DNA from: Humisphaera borealis
Lineage (GTDB): Bacteria > Planctomycetota > Phycisphaerae > Tepidisphaerales > Tepidisphaeraceae
Direction: 5' to 3'
Length of the DNA: 64,000 bases
Assembly (NCBI RefSeq): GCF_015169395.1
Contig: NZ_CP063458.1
Coordinates: 4,898,001 to 4,962,000 of the forward strand
The notes under the pieces were generated by a model that worked only from the letters and a program-made list of their open reading frames with translations, was not told the DNA's origin and made no database searches. Below, in pieces: positions 32,949-39,944 of the stretch (position 1 is the stretch's first letter; each line of letters starts with the position of its first letter). The position numbers and the translations under genes were made by a program.

Positions 32949-33257
32949 ATGACCGGTGACCGGATTAGAATTCGTATGGAAGCCTACGACCATCGGGCCC
33001 TGGATGCCTCGGCAAAAGAAATTGTCGAGCATGCCAAGCGGACCAATGCCCGTGTGTGCGGCCCGATTCCCTTGCCGACCCGTGTCGAGCGTTACACCGT
33101 CCTGCGTAGCCCTCACATCGATAAGAAGTCCCGTGAACAGTTCGAGATGCGGACCCACAAACGCATTATCGACATTCTCGACTTCGGTCCCCGGACCGTC
33201 GATGCGCTGAACCGCCTGGTCGTTCCGGCCGGTGTGTTCGTGAAGATCAAGGCCTGA
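32949..33257 (+). CDS. rpsJ: 30S ribosomal protein S10
   Basis: 102 residues, the standard length. Recognised by [21 protein letters not shown], the tRNA-proximal loop [19 protein letters not shown] and the end [16 protein letters not shown] variant ([16 protein letters not shown]). Component of the 30S head and NusE transcription factor partner in NusB/E complexes. First gene of the cluster; unlike many bacteria it is not preceded by the str operon (rpsL, rpsG, fusA, tuf) but by a cNMP-binding protein gene. Confidence 0.97.
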
Positions 33258-33271
33258 AAATAGATACAAAC

Positions 33272-33331
33272 GCGATTCTGCTTGCGGGTTTGCCCGCAGT
33301 AAGGAGGGGCTGTCCTCCTGATAAGAATCGC
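33272..33331 (+). promoter_or_regulatory. Three-way-junction RNA structure in the rpsJ-rplC gap
   Basis: Closing stem GCGATTCT (33272-33279) with AGAATCGC (33324-33331); hairpin TGCGGG-tttg-CCCGCA (33283-33298); hairpin AGGAGG-ggctgt-CCTCCT (33302-33319). All three stems are perfect and nested in only 60 bases. The second hairpin would hide an anti-SD-like AGGAGG. It lies 260 bases before rplC in a 334-base gap without a gene. Confidence 0.72.
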
Positions 33332-33591
33332 CAATATTTGCAGCCGGGCCGCGGGGTTCATCCAAGAACCCACTCGCCTTTCGAATCGATTGAGCAATCA
33401 ATCGAGGGATAAGGGCCGCGGTCGCCGGGTTTTCTTTTCGCCCGAATCGGCCGCTTAAGGGTCGGAACGGCGAAAAGGCTCTTACGGCAAGTGTCCGTGA
33501 GGCAGACTGATAGGCTCCTTTTTGCGGAGCGGGTTACGAGATCGGGTTGGCGGCACGAGCCGTTTTTCCTTCTCTCCTCTGCCCGGTTTCA
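33332..33591 (+). other. Remainder of the long rplC leader
   Basis: 260 non-coding bases after the three-way junction. Smaller potential stems are visible (GGGTTCATCCAAGAACCC at about 33355-33372; GCTCC-tttttgc-GGAGC near 33514-33530). No promoter was clear. An in-frame extension of rplC to 33547 is not supported by homology. Confidence 0.55.
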
Positions 33592-34254
33592 ATGACACCA
33601 GCACTGCTCGGCAAGAAAATCGGCATGACCCGCGTCTATGACGCGGCCGGCAAGGTGATTCCCGTCACCGTCGTCGAATGTCAGCCCAACGCGATTACCC
33701 AGATCAAAACGGTCGAGACCGACGGCTACAACGCCGTTCAGCTCGGCTTTGACGACATCCGCGCCAAGCTCAGCAATTTCCCGCTGATTGGTCACTGTGC
33801 CAAGGCGGGCGTAGGCCCCAAGCGCAGCTTCGCCGAGATTCGTCTGAAGAACCCCACTGACAAGAAGGCCGGAGAGGCCGTTGCAGTGGGGATTTTTGAT
33901 GGCGTTCAGTACGTTGACGTCATCGGAACCAGCAAGGGCAAGGGTTTCGCCGGTGCGATGAAGCGGCATCACTTCGGTGGTCAGCCCGCGTCGCACGGTA
34001 CCGAACGCAAGCACCGCTCGCGTGGTTCGATCTGTTCGTACGCCAGCAACCGTGGTCACACCGGCAAGCCCAAGAAGGGGCTTCGCATGGCCGGCCACAT
34101 GGGCAACGAACGCGTCACCTGCAGCAACCTGGCCCTGGTGAAGGTTGACGCCGAGAAGAACATTCTCCTCATCAAGGGTGCGGTGCCGGGTTCCAACGGC
34201 GGCCTGGTGTTCGTTCGCAAGGCGCTGACCGCCCGCGACAAGAAGCCGGCTTAA
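33592..34254 (+). CDS. rplC: 50S ribosomal protein L3
   Basis: 220 residues from the ATG at 33592, where the family start ALLGKKIGMTRVYDAAGKVIPV begins. The central extension reaching the peptidyl transferase centre is present (GTSKGKGFAGAMKRHHFGG, SHGTERKHRSRGSI), as is HMGNERVTCSNL. Binds 23S rRNA early in assembly. Preceded by an unusually long non-coding gap containing a predicted structured RNA. Confidence 0.97.
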   Translation: MTPALLGKKIGMTRVYDAAGKVIPVTVVECQPNAITQIKTVETDGYNAVQLGFDDIRAKLSNFPLIGHCAKAGVGPKRSFAEIRLKNPTDKKAGEAVAVGIFDGVQYVDVIGTSKGKGFAGAMKRHHFGGQPASHGTERKHRSRGSICSYASNRGHTGKPKKGLRMAGHMGNERVTCSNLALVKVDAEKNILLIKGAVPGSNGGLVFVRKALTARDKKPA

Positions 34255-34361: not shown

Positions 34362-35000
34362 ATGATCGAAGTCCCAGTATTCAATCAGAACGGCCAGGAG
34401 ATCGAAAAGCTCCAGGTCGACGAAGCCAAGCTCGGCGGCAAGATCAACAACGCGCTGCTCAAGCAGGCCGTTGTGATGTACCACGCCAACAAGCGTCAGG
34501 GCACCGTCCGGACGCAGGCCCGTGGTGAAGTCGCCGGCTCGACCCGAAAGATGTTCAAGCAGAAGGGCACCGGCAACGCCCGTACCGGCGGTATCCGCAA
34601 CCCGATCAAGGTCGGTGGCGGTCACGCCAAGCAGCGTCGTCCGAAGGACTGGCGCCAAGCCCTGCCGAAGAAGGCCCGCCGCGCCGCCCGCAACGCCGCG
34701 ATCCTGTCGAAGATCGAATCCAAGGAGATTCGCATTATCGACGACATCAAGCTCGATCAGCCCAAGACCAAGCTGATGGCCCAGATCTTCAAGGCCCTCG
34801 GCATCGAGCGGACCTGCCTGTTCGCGGTTGACGGTCGCAACGAGACCATCGAGCGATCGGCCCGCAACATCGACCGCACCACGCTCACGACGGTGGCCCA
34901 GCTCAATGCCTGGGACATCCTCAAGAACCGCGTGCTGCTGGTGACCAAGGCCGGGTTCCAGGAGATCCTGGACGGCAAGAAGAAAGAAGCGACGGTCTAA
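34362..35000 (+). CDS. rplD: 50S ribosomal protein L4
   Basis: 212 residues. Exit-tunnel protein; the tunnel loop is VAGSTRKMFKQKGTGNARTG followed by RNPIKVGGGHAKQRRPKDW. The globular part has LKQAVVMYHANKRQGT near the start and AWDILKNRVLLVTKAGF at the end. In Escherichia coli L4 also represses its operon; a comparable site is not proven here, but the structured leader before rplC is a candidate target. Confidence 0.97.
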   Translation: MIEVPVFNQNGQEIEKLQVDEAKLGGKINNALLKQAVVMYHANKRQGTVRTQARGEVAGSTRKMFKQKGTGNARTGGIRNPIKVGGGHAKQRRPKDWRQALPKKARRAARNAAILSKIESKEIRIIDDIKLDQPKTKLMAQIFKALGIERTCLFAVDGRNETIERSARNIDRTTLTTVAQLNAWDILKNRVLLVTKAGFQEILDGKKKEATV

Positions 35001-35043
35001 CGGCGGTCGAACGGCCACGCTCCCTGAACTTTGAGGTTGTCCG

Positions 35044-35322
35044 ATGGAACACACACGAATCATCATCCGCCCCCTGGTGACGGAAAAGAGCACTCACCAG
35101 CAGGCCACCCGCAACGTTTACTCGTTCGAGGTGGACAAGCGTGCGGATAAGACGCAGATCAAGCAGGCCGTCGAAAAGCTGTACGACGTCAAGGTCGTCG
35201 ATGTCCGCACAATGACCCGCAAGGGCAAGAGCCGCCGCACGAAGGTCGGCTTCGTCGAAGGCAGCAACTGGAAGCGCGCACTGGTCGTGCTGGATGAGAA
35301 CTCGAGGATTGAACTGTTCTAA
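35044..35322 (+). CDS. rplW: 50S ribosomal protein L23
   Basis: 92 residues, usual bacterial length. Signature RPLVTEKSTHQQATRNVYSFEVDKRADKTQIKQAVEKLYDVKV seen as RPLVTEKS, YSFEVDKRADKTQIK and VEKLYDVKV; then GKSRRTKVGFVEGSNWKRALV. Located at the exit of the ribosomal tunnel, docking site for trigger factor and SRP. The 43-base gap from rplD has no repeat. Confidence 0.97.
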   Translation: MEHTRIIIRPLVTEKSTHQQATRNVYSFEVDKRADKTQIKQAVEKLYDVKVVDVRTMTRKGKSRRTKVGFVEGSNWKRALVVLDENSRIELF

Positions 35323-35330
35323 GGAGAGTC

Positions 35331-35404
35331 GTCGGTAGCCGGTAGTCAGCGGTCAGAAGGATTTTCCTCTGACCACCGACCACTGATCACTGATCACTGA
35401 CAAG
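35331..35404. repeat. Inverted heptamer arrays, rplW-rplB gap
   Basis: Left array 35331-35358 (four units, G[TC]C[AG]Gxx type) and right array 35370-35404 (five units, for example TGACCAC, TGATCAC, TGATCAC) read as the same TGACNAC-like heptamer on opposite strands. The loop is about 11 bases. The right array ends three bases before the rplB start codon, and no Shine-Dalgarno is visible. Confidence 0.85.
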
Positions 35405-35407
35405 ACA

Positions 35408-36274
35408 ATGGCAATCAAGTTTTACAACCCGACGACTCCCGGCCGCCGCCAAGGCTCCGTGCTCGACTACAAGTCGGTCATCACGAAGAACAAGCCCGAG
35501 CGATCGCTGACGGTCGGCCAGACCCGCGCCAATGGGCGCAACCACCATGGTGTCATCACGGCTCATGGCAAGGGTGGTGGTAACAAGCGGCTCTATCGGT
35601 TGATCGACTTCCGCCGCGACAAGGACGGCGTCGACGCCGTCGTCGAGGCGATCGAATACGATCCCAATCGCTCCTGCCACATCGCCCTCCTGAAGTACAC
35701 GGACGGCGAAAAGCGCTACATCCTAGCCCCCAACGGCCTGGTCGTCGGTGCCAAGGTGCAGAGCGGTGAGACCGCCGCTCCTGAAGTCGGCAACGCCATG
35801 CCGCTGTCGGCGATCCCGACGGGCCTGGAAATCCACAACATCGAAATGAACCCCGGGCAGGGCGGCAAGCTCGTTCGCGCCGCCGGCATGGTCGCCCGGC
35901 TGTCGGCCAAAGAAGGCGAGTGGTCGGTCGTCATTCTGCCCTCCGGCGAAATGCGTCGGGTGAAGAGCAAGTGCCGCGCCACCATCGGCCAGGTCGGCAA
36001 CCTCGACTGGATCAACGTCAGCATCGGCAAGGCCGGTCGCAATCGTCATCGCGGCATTCGCCCGAAGACCCGCGCCAAGGCCAAGAACCCGATCGACCAT
36101 CCGCTGGGTGGTGGTGAAGGTCGCAGCAACGGCGGTCGTCATCCGGTCAGCAAGACGGGTGTCCCGGCCAAGGGTGGCATCACCCGCAGCCCGAAGAAGG
36201 CCAGCGAGAAGCTGATCCTCCGCCGTCGCAAGTTCGGCCGATTCCAGCAGCGGCCGCAGACGGTGAATGTTTAA
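35408..36274 (+). CDS. rplB: 50S ribosomal protein L2
   Basis: 288 residues. Signature parts: MAIKFYNPTTPGRRQGSV, GRNHHGVITAHGKGGGNKR, GDWINVSIGKAGRNRH variant (LDWINVSIGKAGRNRHRG) and IDHPLGGGEGRSNGGRHPV. The His of IDHP corresponds to the position known to be important near the peptidyl transferase centre. Start codon directly follows the right heptamer array, so initiation may not use a Shine-Dalgarno. Confidence 0.97.
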   Translation: MAIKFYNPTTPGRRQGSVLDYKSVITKNKPERSLTVGQTRANGRNHHGVITAHGKGGGNKRLYRLIDFRRDKDGVDAVVEAIEYDPNRSCHIALLKYTDGEKRYILAPNGLVVGAKVQSGETAAPEVGNAMPLSAIPTGLEIHNIEMNPGQGGKLVRAAGMVARLSAKEGEWSVVILPSGEMRRVKSKCRATIGQVGNLDWINVSIGKAGRNRHRGIRPKTRAKAKNPIDHPLGGGEGRSNGGRHPVSKTGVPAKGGITRSPKKASEKLILRRRKFGRFQQRPQTVNV

Positions 36275-36277
36275 CGC

Positions 36278-36409
36278 GTAGTAGGCAGTACGCAGTAAGC
36301 AGTACGCAGAGAAGATTAAGGCGGTCAGCAGGAGTGGTAGCGACAGACAGGCGTCGAGCAGGGTCCATCCCTCCTTACTGCCTACTGCCTACTGCGTACT
36401 GCTTACTGA
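36278..36409. repeat. Inverted heptamer arrays, rplB-rpsS gap
   Basis: Left array 36281-36308 (GTAGGCA, GTACGCA, GTAAGCA, GTACGCA) and right array 36375-36409 (five [TCG]TACTGC units). CAGTAAGCAGTACGCAG (36293-36309) is perfectly complementary to CTGCGTACTGCTTACTG (36392-36408). The left array starts four bases after the rplB stop, and the right one ends six bases before the rpsS start. Confidence 0.9.
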
Positions 36410-36415
36410 AGAACA

Positions 36416-36694
36416 ATGAGCAGAAGCGCAAAAAAAGGCCCGTTCGTCAACGAGAAGCTGTTCCGCAAGGTCGCGGTTCTCAACGAGCGTCGTGCCAAGT
36501 CGCCGATCAAGACCTGGGCCCGGGCTTGCACGATCATCCCGGAGTTCGTCGGACATACGTTCGAGGTCCACAACGGGAACAAGCACGTGCGCGTGTTCGT
36601 GACCGAGGACATGGTCGGACACAAGCTCGGTGAGTTTTCGCCGACCCGTACGTTCCGCGGCCATACCGCCAAGAAGGCCGGCCCGGCGGCTTAA
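36416..36694 (+). CDS. rpsS: 30S ribosomal protein S19
   Basis: 92 residues. [19 protein letters not shown] at the start, [22 protein letters not shown] in the middle and [12 protein letters not shown] at the end. 30S head protein that contacts S13 and the intersubunit bridge. The expected Shine-Dalgarno position is filled by the right heptamer array; GAAGAACA precedes ATG. Confidence 0.97.
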
Positions 36695-36734
36695 GCAGAG
36701 CTAGTACCGAGTACTGATACTCAAAGAGGAAGTC

Positions 36735-37073
36735 ATGGCGTTCACAGCCAAACATCGGTATGCCCGCATCAGCCCCCGCAAGGCCCGGCTGTTGATGGAC
36801 CTGATCCGCGGTCGCAAGGTCGACGACGCATTGACGCTTCTGCGTTTCAGCAAGAAGCGTGCGAGCGTGATGGTCGAGAAGGTCGTCCGCTCCGCCGTCG
36901 CCAACGCGACCGAGCAGGACGTCGCCCCGAAGCGGAACGCGCTGGTCGTGTCCGCCGCCTGGGTGGACGAGGGCCCGACGATCAAGCGGTTTCAACCGAA
37001 GGATCGCGGCAAAGCGTATTCGATCAAGAAGCGCACGAGCCACCTGGTCGTCGAGGTGGACGCAAAGGAATAG
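36735..37073 (+). CDS. rplV: 50S ribosomal protein L22
   Basis: 112 residues. FTAKHRYARISPRKARLLMDLIRGRKVDDAL and LVVSAAWVDEGPTIKRF with the tail KKRTSHLVVEVDAKE. The beta-hairpin that lines the exit tunnel is the PKDRGKAYSIKKRTSH segment. Has a conventional AGAGGAAG Shine-Dalgarno; the 40-base gap holds only two or three weak heptamer units (AGTACCG, AGTACTG). Confidence 0.96.
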   Translation: MAFTAKHRYARISPRKARLLMDLIRGRKVDDALTLLRFSKKRASVMVEKVVRSAVANATEQDVAPKRNALVVSAAWVDEGPTIKRFQPKDRGKAYSIKKRTSHLVVEVDAKE

Positions 37074-37099
37074 TTCGTCGCTTGTCTCGTCACGAGCAA

Positions 37100-37134
37100 C
37101 GACTACTGATCACGGACTACTGACTACGGACTGA
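37100..37134 (+). repeat. Heptamer array, rplV-rpsC gap
   Basis: Five tandem units of consensus NGACTAC (CGACTAC, TGATCAC, GGACTAC, TGACTAC, GGACTGA). It ends three bases before the rpsC start. No obvious complementary left array. Confidence 0.85.
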
Positions 37135-37137
37135 ATC

Positions 37138-37842
37138 ATGGGTCAAAAGGTCAATCCAACCGGCTTCCGCGTCGGCATCACCGAAGACTGGAAGAGCAAG
37201 TGGTACGCCCCCAAGGCGGCCTACGGCAACTTCCTCGTTGAGGACTTCAAGGTCCGCAACTACATCGACAACAAGCTGAACCGGCGTCCGCCGTTCGCCG
37301 GGATCAGTGAGATCCTGATCGAGCGCACCCGCGAAGAGGTGACGGTCACGCTGAAGACCGCCCGTCCGGGCCTGGTCATCGGACCGAAGGGTGCTGAAGT
37401 CGACAAGCTCCGCGAAGAGCTCGAAGACATGATCCACCGTAAGGTGGCCCCGATCAAGGTCATCGAGGTTAAGAACCCGGACCTCAACGCCCAGCTGGTC
37501 GCCGAGGCGATCGCCGAGCAGTTGAAGAAGCGTGCCAGCTTCCGTCGCGTCCTGAAGATGCGCATCGAAAGCAGCAAGCAGGCCGGTGCCAAGGGCATCA
37601 AGATCCAGATCAGTGGTCGGCTCGGCGGGGCGGAAATCGCCCGTACTGAGAAGGTCACCAGCGGATCGGTTCCCCTGACCACGCTGCAGGCCGACGTGAA
37701 CTACGGCTACGCGATCGCCCTGACGACATTCGGAACCATCGGCGTGAAGGTCTGGATCTTCCGCGGGATGTACGGCGACTCGAACCAGGTCTTGGAGACC
37801 GACGTTCGACCGGGTGGCCCGATGCGTCGCGGCCGTCGGTAA
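37138..37842 (+). CDS. rpsC: 30S ribosomal protein S3
   Basis: 234 residues. N-terminal GQKVNPTGFRVGITEDWKSKW; type 2 KH domain with VIGPKGAEVDKLREEL; C-terminal domain with ISGRLGGAEIARTEK, TLQADVNYGYAIALTTFG and the mRNA-entry region GVKVWIFRGM. Helps form the mRNA entry tunnel and ribosomal helicase. Start is directly behind a heptamer array with no Shine-Dalgarno. Confidence 0.97.
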   Translation: MGQKVNPTGFRVGITEDWKSKWYAPKAAYGNFLVEDFKVRNYIDNKLNRRPPFAGISEILIERTREEVTVTLKTARPGLVIGPKGAEVDKLREELEDMIHRKVAPIKVIEVKNPDLNAQLVAEAIAEQLKKRASFRRVLKMRIESSKQAGAKGIKIQISGRLGGAEIARTEKVTSGSVPLTTLQADVNYGYAIALTTFGTIGVKVWIFRGMYGDSNQVLETDVRPGGPMRRGRR

Positions 37843-37877
37843 ACGGATGTGCCGAAGTACTGGTTGGGCATTGGCCC

Positions 37878-37898
37878 TTACGCATTAAGCATTACGCA
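37878..37898 (+). repeat. Short heptamer array, rpsC-rplP gap
   Basis: Three units TTACGCA, TTAAGCA, TTACGCA. It is followed by a conventional AAGGTGA before rplP. Confidence 0.75.
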
Positions 37899-37915
37899 GT
37901 TGATTAAGGTGACTT

Positions 37916-38338
37916 ATGGCAATGATGCCCAAGCGGGTGAAGTTCCGCAAAAGCCAGCGTGGCAAGATGACGGGTGTCGCCACCCGCGGTAACACGGTCG
38001 CGTTCGGCGAGTACGGTCTGCAGGCGCTCAAGCCCGCATGGATCACCGCCCGCCAGATCGAAGCCGGTCGTGTGGCGTGCATGCACTTTCTGCGTCGCGA
38101 AGGCCGGTTGTACATCCGCGTCTTCCCGCACAAGCCCGTGTCCAGCAAGCCGCTCGAAGTTCGTATGGGCAGCGGTAAGGGCGAACCGGAGTTCTGGTGC
38201 GCCGTGGTGAAGCCCGGCACCATCCTGTTCGAGATCCAGGGCGTCGAAGAGAAGATCGCGAAGCAGGCGCTGGCCCGCGTGGCGATCAAGATGCCGATCG
38301 CGACCCGGTTTGTGACCCGCAAGCACGCAATCGGCTGA
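37916..38338 (+). CDS. rplP: 50S ribosomal protein L16
   Basis: 140 residues. [18 protein letters not shown] at the start, signature [18 protein letters not shown] in the middle and the loop of basic residues near the A and P sites. A late assembly protein needed for peptidyl-transferase activity. AAGGTGA precedes the start. Only 61 bases separate it from rpmC. Confidence 0.97.
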
Positions 38339-38399
38339 TGTGACTGTGGCAAGGGCAGGTAAGCCTGTTCCCCGCCGCGGCTCGAAGACGGAGACGACG

Positions 38400-38606
38400 A
38401 TGAAGATCAAAGACATCCGCGAAAAAAGTGAAGAGGCCCTCAAGGCCGAACTGGCCGAAAGGCAGAAGCACCTGTTCGATCTCCGCAGCCAGGCGGTCAC
38501 GGAGAAGCTGGAAGACCCGAGCCAGTTGGGCAAGACCCGCAAGGACATTGCCCGGCTGAAGACCGTCATCCACCAGCGCAAGCTCGAGAAGGCCAAGAAG
38601 GCGTAA
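38400..38606 (+). CDS. rpmC: 50S ribosomal protein L29
   Basis: 68 residues from the ATG at 38400, the first position with L29 similarity (MKIKDIREKSEEALKAEL). Two helices with LFDLRSQAVTEKLEDPSQLGKTRKDIARLKTV form the coiled hairpin at the tunnel exit beside L23. A longer reading from 38340 adds 20 non-homologous residues right after the rplP stop. Confidence 0.95.
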   Translation: MKIKDIREKSEEALKAELAERQKHLFDLRSQAVTEKLEDPSQLGKTRKDIARLKTVIHQRKLEKAKKA

Positions 38607-38652
38607 CCGACGCAAGCGTAATTGAGACAGAACGCAACACGGATCCAAAGCC

Positions 38653-39006
38653 ATGGCAGACACGCAGACATCCACCGAATCGACCGAAACCGCCCGCAAG
38701 CCAATGCGCACGGTCATCGGGTTGGTCGCCTCCGACAAGGGCGACAAGACGATCAAGGTCGTCGTCAATTACCAGACCCGTCATGAGAAGTACGGAAAGT
38801 ACCTGAAGCGTCGGACGGTGTATCACGCCCATGACGAAGCGAATGAGGCCCGCGAAGGCGATCGCGTCGAGATCGCCGAGTGCCGCCCGATGAGCAAGAC
38901 CAAGCATCACCGCCTGGTTCGCGTCGTCGAGAAGGCCCCGGCCGAGAAACTGGTACAGGTGTCGGCGGAAGAAGTGATGACCGGCAAGGCTCCGGAAGCG
39001 CGATGA
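38653..39006 (+). CDS. rpsQ: 30S ribosomal protein S17, extended at both ends
   Basis: 117 residues compared with about 80-90 usual. The core from about residue 18 is MRTVIGLVASDKGDKTIKVVVNYQTRHEKYGKYLKRRT, seen as VASDKGDKTIKV and HEKYGKYLKR, then ECRPMSKTKHHRLVRVVEKA. An N-terminal Thr/Ser/Glu-rich tail (ADTQTSTESTETARKP) and a C-terminal EKLVQVSAEEV extension are added. Binds helix 11 region of 16S rRNA. Confidence 0.95.
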   Translation: MADTQTSTESTETARKPMRTVIGLVASDKGDKTIKVVVNYQTRHEKYGKYLKRRTVYHAHDEANEAREGDRVEIAECRPMSKTKHHRLVRVVEKAPAEKLVQVSAEEVMTGKAPEAR

Positions 39007-39013
39007 AGGTGGA

Positions 39014-39104
39014 GTGTTGATCGTTGATGGTGGATCGTCGGCCAGGCCCGGCGAACACCTGCGACCCTCAACCCTCGACATACGACAATCAACAGTCAAC
39101 GGTC
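39014..39104. repeat. Inverted heptamer arrays, rpsQ-rplN gap
   Basis: Left array 39014-39041 (GTGTTGA, TCGTTGA, TGGTGGA, TCGTCGG) and right array 39063-39104 (six [GA]AC(N)3C units such as AACAGTC, AACGGTC). The left reverse complement contains TCAACGA and TCAACAC, matching the right. The right array ends six bases before rplN, and no Shine-Dalgarno is visible. Confidence 0.82.
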
Positions 39105-39110
39105 GATCCC

Positions 39111-39497
39111 ATGATTCAACAGCAATCCTATCTCGATATCGCCGACAACACCGGTGCCAAGCAGGCGATGTGCATCAAGGTGCTCGGCGGCAGCTCTTCG
39201 AGGGGCAAGTTCAAGCGTCGTGTTGCCGGCGTCGGCGACGTGATCATCTGTGCCGTCAAGAAGGTGCTGCCCGGCGGCGACGTGAAGAACGGCTCGATCA
39301 TCCGCTGCGTCATCGTCCGCACGAAGCAGGTCACCCGTCGCGTCGACGGTAGCTATGTCCGCTTCGACAACAACGCGGCCGTCACGATCAGCAAGGAAGG
39401 CGATCCCGTCGGTACCCGTATCTTCGGTGCCGTCGCCCGAGAGCTTCGCGACAAGAACATGATGAAGATCGTTTCGCTGGCCACCGAAGTGGTTTGA
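39111..39497 (+). CDS. rplN: 50S ribosomal protein L14
   Basis: 128 residues from the ATG at 39111 (122 is usual; a small insertion GSSSRGK is visible near residue 27). [27 protein letters not shown], seen as [18 protein letters not shown], then [31 protein letters not shown] and [10 protein letters not shown]. Contacts 16S rRNA at an intersubunit bridge. Upstream in-frame codons translate the repeat array and are excluded. Confidence 0.96.
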
Positions 39498-39509
39498 AGA
39501 TTGTCATGG

Positions 39510-39581
39510 GTCGCCAGTCACCTGTCACTCGTATCTACAAGTGACCGCTGACCGGTGACAAATGACCAGTGACGAAGGACA
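39510..39581. repeat. Inverted heptamer arrays, rplN-rplX gap
   Basis: Left array 39510-39537 (GTCGCCA, GTCACCT, GTCACTC, GTATCTA) and right array 39540-39581 (six NNTGACN units such as AGTGACC, GGTGACA). The arrays are practically back to back. The right array itself contains GAAGGA, which can serve rplX as Shine-Dalgarno. Confidence 0.87.
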
Positions 39582-39587
39582 AGTACG

Positions 39588-39944
39588 ATGTCTAGCAGAA
39601 TCAAAAAAGGCGACAACGTGATCGTCATCACCGGTGCCGACAAGGGCAAAACCGGCAAGGTGCTCAAGGTCATGTCGGACGACGGCAAGGTGCTGGTCGA
39701 AGGCATCAACCGCGTGTGGAAGCACGTTCGCCCGTCGCAGCGTTACCCGCAGGGTGGCCGCATCCAGAAGGATGCCCCGATCCAGCTGAGCAACGTCCAG
39801 GTCGTCGATCCGACGACTGGCAAGGGAACTCGGATCCGTTTCGAGACGCGTAACGGCGTCAAGCACCGGATCGCCGTCAAGAGCGGCACCGACCTGGGTG
39901 CCGACGGCAAGGTCAGCACCAAGGCGGAGAAGGCCGAAGCCTGA
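39588..39944 (+). CDS. rplX: 50S ribosomal protein L24
   Basis: 118 residues. KOW motif IKKGDNVIVITGADKGKTGKV at the start, here read as KGDNVIVITGADKGKTG, then VEGINRVWKHVRPSQRYPQGG and QLSNVQVVDP. Assembly initiator near the tunnel exit. The C-terminal ~20 residues are Lys/Ala/Glu-rich and extend beyond the usual end. Confidence 0.96.
   Translation: MSSRIKKGDNVIVITGADKGKTGKVLKVMSDDGKVLVEGINRVWKHVRPSQRYPQGGRIQKDAPIQLSNVQVVDPTTGKGTRIRFETRNGVKHRIAVKSGTDLGADGKVSTKAEKAEA

Follow-up and report, generated by a model that had tools for sequence, protein, structure and literature searches.

The stretch of DNA analysed here, called the window in what follows, covers 64 kb of the genome of Humisphaera borealis, a single contig of 7.19 Mb in which it lies at 4.90-4.96 Mb. 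On the forward strand of the window, rpsJ is followed by a ribosomal protein (r-protein) operon that encodes L3, L4, L23, L2 and others, and the gap between the rpsJ stop codon and the rplC ATG at 33592 measures 334 nt (33258-33591). An earlier note had drawn attention to a compact RNA fold within this gap. The genes, the fold flagged first and a pair of hairpins further downstream are as follows:

32949-33257, + strand: rpsJ (S10), the upstream gene; open reading frame, 82-91% identity to family relatives
33272-33331, + strand: three-way junction flagged first, from folding (z -4.07); relatives mostly carry a single hairpin here, directly after rpsJ
33434-33503, + strand: two lineage-specific hairpins (33434-33477 and 33478-33503), from folding; absent from the gaps of relatives
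33592-34254, + strand: rplC (L3), first gene of the operon rplC-rplD-rplW-rplB onward; open reading frame, 58-72% identity to family relatives

The gap had been described as unusually long, which holds within the family, where it is the longest (others span 129-292 nt), but not within the class, where gaps reach up to about 415 nt. As a whole it is unusually structured (-142.9 kcal/mol, z -3.5), so that the 60-mer at 33272-33331 is one piece of a larger structured region. The two hairpins at 33434-33503 are stable, lie between the conserved junction and the Shine-Dalgarno hairpin described below, and explain much of the longer gap. Rfam returned nothing matching in the window or its relatives, neither at the gathering threshold nor meaningfully below it, in line with the earlier remark that the RNA resembles no known leader; a CyVA-1 match (E 1.3, minus strand) and miRNA matches in one relative lie far below the gathering score and were discarded as chance. 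Initiation signals within the operon are mixed: in the window, good Shine-Dalgarno sequences precede rpsJ, rplW, rplV, rpmC and rplX, and those of rplB, rpsS and rplN (34362-39600) are weak or absent.

The 60-mer does fold as a three-way junction, with a minimum free energy of -30.6 kcal/mol (z -4.07) that none of 200 shuffled sequences equalled: the closing stem has 8 bp (33272-33279/33324-33331), one inner hairpin has 3+5 bp with one bulge, and the other is a 7-bp AGGAGGG/UCCUCCU pairing. The AGGAGG is indeed sequestered in the latter. It is not the Shine-Dalgarno sequence of rplC, however, whose start codon is about 280 nt away, and no other start codon is nearby. Such a fold is rare in the window, not unique, since 12 of 3395 GC-matched 60-nt segments are at least as stable and 2 of the 478 that fold as multiloops reach about -30.5 or lower. 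No homologue was found among 19 family relatives, and the locus is missing from the only genome of the same genus. There is hence no covariation for the 60-mer, and by the refuting condition that the earlier note had set, its candidacy as a conserved element fails; as far as can be tested by sequence comparison, it is specific to this genome. About a dozen relatives carry a terminator-like hairpin after rpsJ (GCCCCUG-n-AAGGGGC, then a U-rich run), in place of which the window has the three-way junction without a good U-run, and the 60-mer may be a remodelled form of this end-of-rpsJ structure.

When the gap was compared at the DNA level with about 200 class genomes, many members of the window's family (labelled f1) gave short, almost identical matches in their own rpsJ-rplC gaps. 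These matches fall at gap positions 84-124, all downstream of the 60-mer, within a domain built as follows:

33338-33436, + strand: conserved leader domain; match to covariance model R1 (56.6 bits, E 2.5e-15), covariation
33344-33353, + strand: 5' strand of P0 (33344-33347) and P1 (33348-33353), partner 33417-33428; folding
33354-33371, + strand: P2 hairpin, GGGUUC-AUCCAA-GAACCC; folding and alignment
33376-33416, + strand: P3 hairpin, extended here, GCCUUU/AAGGGC plus an inner GCAA-capped stem (33386-33405); folding
33417-33428, + strand: 3' strand of P1 and P0; folding

P2, a UCAUCCAAGA hairpin that hardly varies, sits within a helix together with a second hairpin downstream of it, and the whole forms a three-way junction distinct from the 60-mer. 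The general form of P2 is NNNNUC-AUCCAA-GANNNN: the loop and two closing pairs are invariant, apart from one U-to-G change in two genomes, and the lower stem covaries (GGGUUC/GAACCC, GGCUC/GAGCC, GGCGUUC/GAACGC, GGGUC/GACCC, AGGUUC/GAACCU). Covariation was measured on a MAFFT alignment of 20 sequences that had not been fitted to the structure. In this alignment 10 of 16 pairs are changed on both sides, with covariation in all three stems; 89.6% of cells are paired, as compared to 80.5 +/- 1.0 after shuffling, and the covariation score is 0.318 versus 0.164, with none of 500 shuffles as good. Versions of the structure slid along the alignment leave only 32-49% paired. Judged by this pattern of substitutions, 33338-33436 is a conserved, covarying RNA structure.

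Model R1 was searched in 397 genomes of the class and 392 of the phylum. Strong matches (37-79 bits) are all in f1, one in each of 20 genomes and always in the rpsJ-rplC gap, which amounts to every f1 genome with a readable gap (20/20). Outside these gaps the 397 class genomes hold no convincing R1 site, and among the 392 phylum genomes only the window's own is strong; the weaker matches in class and phylum that were examined adjoin no gene of the rplC operon and were rejected. In the assemblies of the other f1 genomes rplC is missing. One of these (G127) carries rpsJ on a short contig and lacks the element in the 250 nt available; there (L172, C441:1-900), a strong GC-rich hairpin resembling a terminator comes after rpsJ, the sequence beyond it is unrelated and rplC was not found, which means either that the contig is misassembled or that rpsJ has become separated from the operon. 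A further observation concerns rplC matches with one stop codon inside (TAA, TAG or TGA), seen in families f10, f16, f19 and f14 (G049, G087, G042, G043, G165 and others); these may be the true end of the gene, reached where the match ends, or may come from faulty assembly.

The second conserved part of the gap surrounds the rplC start. Shine-Dalgarno sequences were scanned for by complementarity to the 16S tail CCUCC, read from one of the loci (L132), and their positions were set by hand. The elements in the window are:

33526-33529, + strand: Shine-Dalgarno GGAG of rplC, 66 nt upstream of the AUG in linear distance; best anti-Shine-Dalgarno match within 110 nt
33530-33585, + strand: hairpin between Shine-Dalgarno and AUG; folding, geometry and covariation
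33530-33534/33581-33585 and 33538-33541/33573-33576, + strand: outer and inner stem of this hairpin; folding
33577-33579, + strand: CUC of the internal loop of this hairpin; folding
33586-33591, + strand: 6-nt spacer from hairpin to AUG; geometry

In the window, GGAG pairs with the 16S tail at -6.2 kcal/mol, as compared to -2.4 for the best match in the linear zone. The same arrangement of an upstream match, a hairpin and a weak match near the AUG is found in 15 of 20 family genomes, where the hairpin starts right after the Shine-Dalgarno sequence and stops 6-9 nt before the AUG. This geometry, taken strictly, holds in 13 of the 15, versus 0.9 expected when the intervening sequence is shuffled, and the other two are near misses (in L014 the hairpin starts two nt later; L131 fits with an earlier AUG as the start). 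With the register set by hand, 73 of 75 cells of the outer stem are paired versus 60 with reshuffled arms (P<5e-5); pair 2 occurs as GC, CG, AU and GU, and pair 4 as GC, AU, UA and CG. In the window alone, the significance of the hairpin is modest (z -1.75). From its geometry and covariation, the rplC start is a hairpin-bridged split ribosome-binding site, in which an over-long Shine-Dalgarno spacing would be restored to 6-9 nt.

The five other family genomes lack the hairpin: three with short gaps have a linear Shine-Dalgarno sequence (L003, -4.9; L004, -7.2; L009, -5.7), and in two (L002, L112) the adjacent matches are weak. All five keep the three-way junction, and the two parts may therefore act independently. 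An upstream anti-Shine-Dalgarno sequence that could form an OFF state, seen by eye in the window and some relatives, was dropped, being present in 7 of 15 versus 5.6 expected from shuffles. A literature search of partial coverage returned no bacterial chromosomal hairpin-bridged site, which is weak evidence.

In the bridging hairpins of f1, GGCA-N-GAG in the 5' arm faces CUC-CUC-UGCC in the 3' arm. The internal loop that these form, A-N-GA / UC-CUC-U, recurs with its strands swapped upstream of rplC in other families of Phycisphaerae, for instance as GGUC-CUC-UGGC gagc GCCA-A-GACC (L034) and GUUC-CUC-UGCC..GGCA-A-GAAC (L250). A strict scan of the first set of regions gave 9 permuted matches outside f1 versus 0.75 expected, and 8 matches of the f1 form within f1 versus 0.6 expected. 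A second scan covered another 100 class regions preceding rplC, a few of which overlap the first set so that the two are not fully independent. It gave 10 permuted matches versus 0.76 expected (6/7 in f18, 2/2 in f4, 1/1 in f15, and also in f3), as well as two matches with the f1 form versus 0.68 expected, one in f23 and one in f3. Throughout the collected loops UC-CUC-U and A-N-GA are constant and the flanking pairs change in step; as these loops were chosen by pairing, statistics on the collected set are overstated, and the scan of 100 regions is to be preferred as a test. The internal-loop hairpin of f18 and f15 folds within a larger three-way junction, which is followed by an ordinary Shine-Dalgarno sequence. 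At the level of sequence, the permuted loops fit one binding site that the same factor would recognize in different leaders.

Taken with the position of the conserved domain, which in 20/20 family genomes lies upstream of r-protein genes and only in the rpsJ-rplC gap, these data make it likely that the gap is a cis-acting autoregulatory r-leader for rplC-rplD-rplW-rplB with its operator in the split ribosome-binding site; the protein ligand and the repression are what we infer. When in excess over rRNA, one of the operon's r-proteins (L4 as first candidate, L3 as second) would bind the internal-loop hairpin and/or the three-way junction. Since the hairpin lies between the Shine-Dalgarno sequence and the AUG, protein bound to it would keep the 30S subunit out; rplC would thereby be repressed, and the downstream genes by coupling to it. 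With no protein bound, the same hairpin would align Shine-Dalgarno sequence and AUG for initiation. The rpsJ gene would escape this control, as it lies upstream and, in about a dozen relatives, has a terminator-like hairpin behind it. The earlier proposal that RNA in this gap sets rplC-rplD expression apart from rpsJ thus probably stands as regards a structured RNA in the gap, but the conserved element is not the 60-mer to which it was attached. The more specific model, which we regard as a little short of an even call, is that the hairpin bridging a split Shine-Dalgarno site contains an r-protein operator, that this internal-loop binding site is circularly permuted between families of Phycisphaerae and in f1 has moved in between Shine-Dalgarno sequence and AUG, and that one hairpin thus both enables and gates initiation.

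As to the ligand, r-leaders bind proteins encoded in the operon they control, and the same ligands are often met again in other lineages (PMC7247131); in E. coli, L4 controls the S10 operon (PMC10931766). Both point to L4, which by this analogy would be our tentative first choice. L3, the product of the first gene, is a possible but more doubtful ligand, and another r-protein of the operon is unlikely. Neither the P2 loop nor the CUC internal loop has a convincing counterpart in the organism's 23S rRNA at the level of sequence, so that rRNA mimicry, common but not obligatory among r-leaders, lends no argument for a ligand here.

Other readings of the same RNA have to be weighed. That the conserved RNA is a transcription attenuator or antiterminator instead of a translational operator would fit the terminator-like hairpin after rpsJ in about a dozen family members, and L4 of E. 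coli also acts by attenuation (PMC10931766). That hairpin, however, lies upstream of the conserved RNA, which therefore could not control it in cis during synthesis, and nothing like a terminator separates the conserved domain of the window from the Shine-Dalgarno hairpin: the only match to a terminator consensus in the gap (33549-33564) occurs at chance frequency inside the hairpin between Shine-Dalgarno sequence and AUG. As the second conserved element is moreover centred on the ribosome-binding site, we find attenuation rather improbable. The RNA is found only before rplC in 20 genomes, and the internal-loop hairpin before rplC in other families points to a ligand tied to the operon. For these reasons a function with no r-protein ligand, be it as a riboswitch or structured untranslated region that senses a small molecule or as an element for RNA processing or stability, is quite improbable, even if so compact a three-way junction, with a loop that hardly varies, would be apt for a small ligand.

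The 60-mer could itself be a regulatory receptor for L3 or L4, given its stable fold (z -4.07) and its gene context, which is the right one. Its absence from 19 family genomes, most of which have simple hairpins in its place, and the retention in all of them of the adjoining 33338-33436 domain instead, render this very improbable. Finally, the Shine-Dalgarno sequence at 33526-33529 might serve a short leader open reading frame, with the hairpin incidental; two members (L005 and L010) do have an AUG about 5 nt after it, but the other 13, the window included, have no AUG, GUG or UUG there, and the covariation of the hairpin and its fixed spacing to the rplC AUG make such a reading scarcely credible.

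The autoregulatory r-leader that we favour belongs to a known class; what is new is the split-site architecture and the permuted loop. It shares with the L4-binding S10 leader of E. coli the operon, a structured RNA before the L3 and L4 genes and L4 as the likely ligand here. The E. coli leader, however, precedes rpsJ, so that S10 is also controlled, and acts by attenuation and translation (PMC10931766), whereas the planctomycete RNA is placed after rpsJ. A scan of the E. coli leader for the internal loop gave a single chance-like match, and Rfam provides no link either. Like the r-leader motifs of Eckert and Weinberg 2020 (L4 in Archaeoglobi, L2 in Alphaproteobacteria and others), the RNA is conserved, covaries and precedes r-protein genes, and the Archaeoglobi L4 motif also precedes rplC-rplD-rplW-rplB; none of the 20 motifs in Table 1 of that survey is planctomycete (PMC7247131).

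Phage T4 genes 38 and 25 also have a hairpin between Shine-Dalgarno sequence and AUG that shortens an over-long spacing, from 22 to 5 nt and from 27 to 11 nt (PMC3014915). Here, by contrast, the site belongs to a chromosomal r-protein operon, the intervening hairpin is much longer (35-61 nt), and it holds an internal loop that is found elsewhere in related leaders. In the E. coli spc operon, S8 bound at the initiation region represses translation (PMC10931766), as proposed here for another operon, RNA and protein, with the difference that the bound structure would separate the Shine-Dalgarno sequence from the AUG.

Most of the work on how L4 controls the S10 operon autogenously concerns gamma-proteobacteria, where the leader comes before rpsJ. 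S10 also serves transcription as NusE. If our reading is true, the planctomycete solution is placed after rpsJ, consistent with S10 outside the control. With a covarying hairpin-bridged Shine-Dalgarno site in a housekeeping operon of the chromosome, a mechanism described for T4 phage genes would gain a wider range, and the loop permuted across families, at which binding is predicted, offers a clean case for testing which r-protein reads it.

Other structured RNAs were seen near rplC in the class. A different, strongly conserved leader lies 100-300 nt upstream of the gene at L037, L041, L048, L053 and the f5 loci among L180-L226; this leader consists of a hairpin CCACCUGAGUGAUCUCGGGUGG and CGGACGGGAUAUCCGGGAGAACCUGACACCGC..GCGGANAACGGGUUCCC, and has no Rfam match. 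A similar UGAG..AUCG loop on changing stems (e.g. UCGCGUGAGCCUCAUCGCGCGA) is found upstream of rplC at L224, L253, L257, L259 and L261 (f3) and at L032, L066, L069 and L075, and these hairpins are possibly a further type of r-leader.
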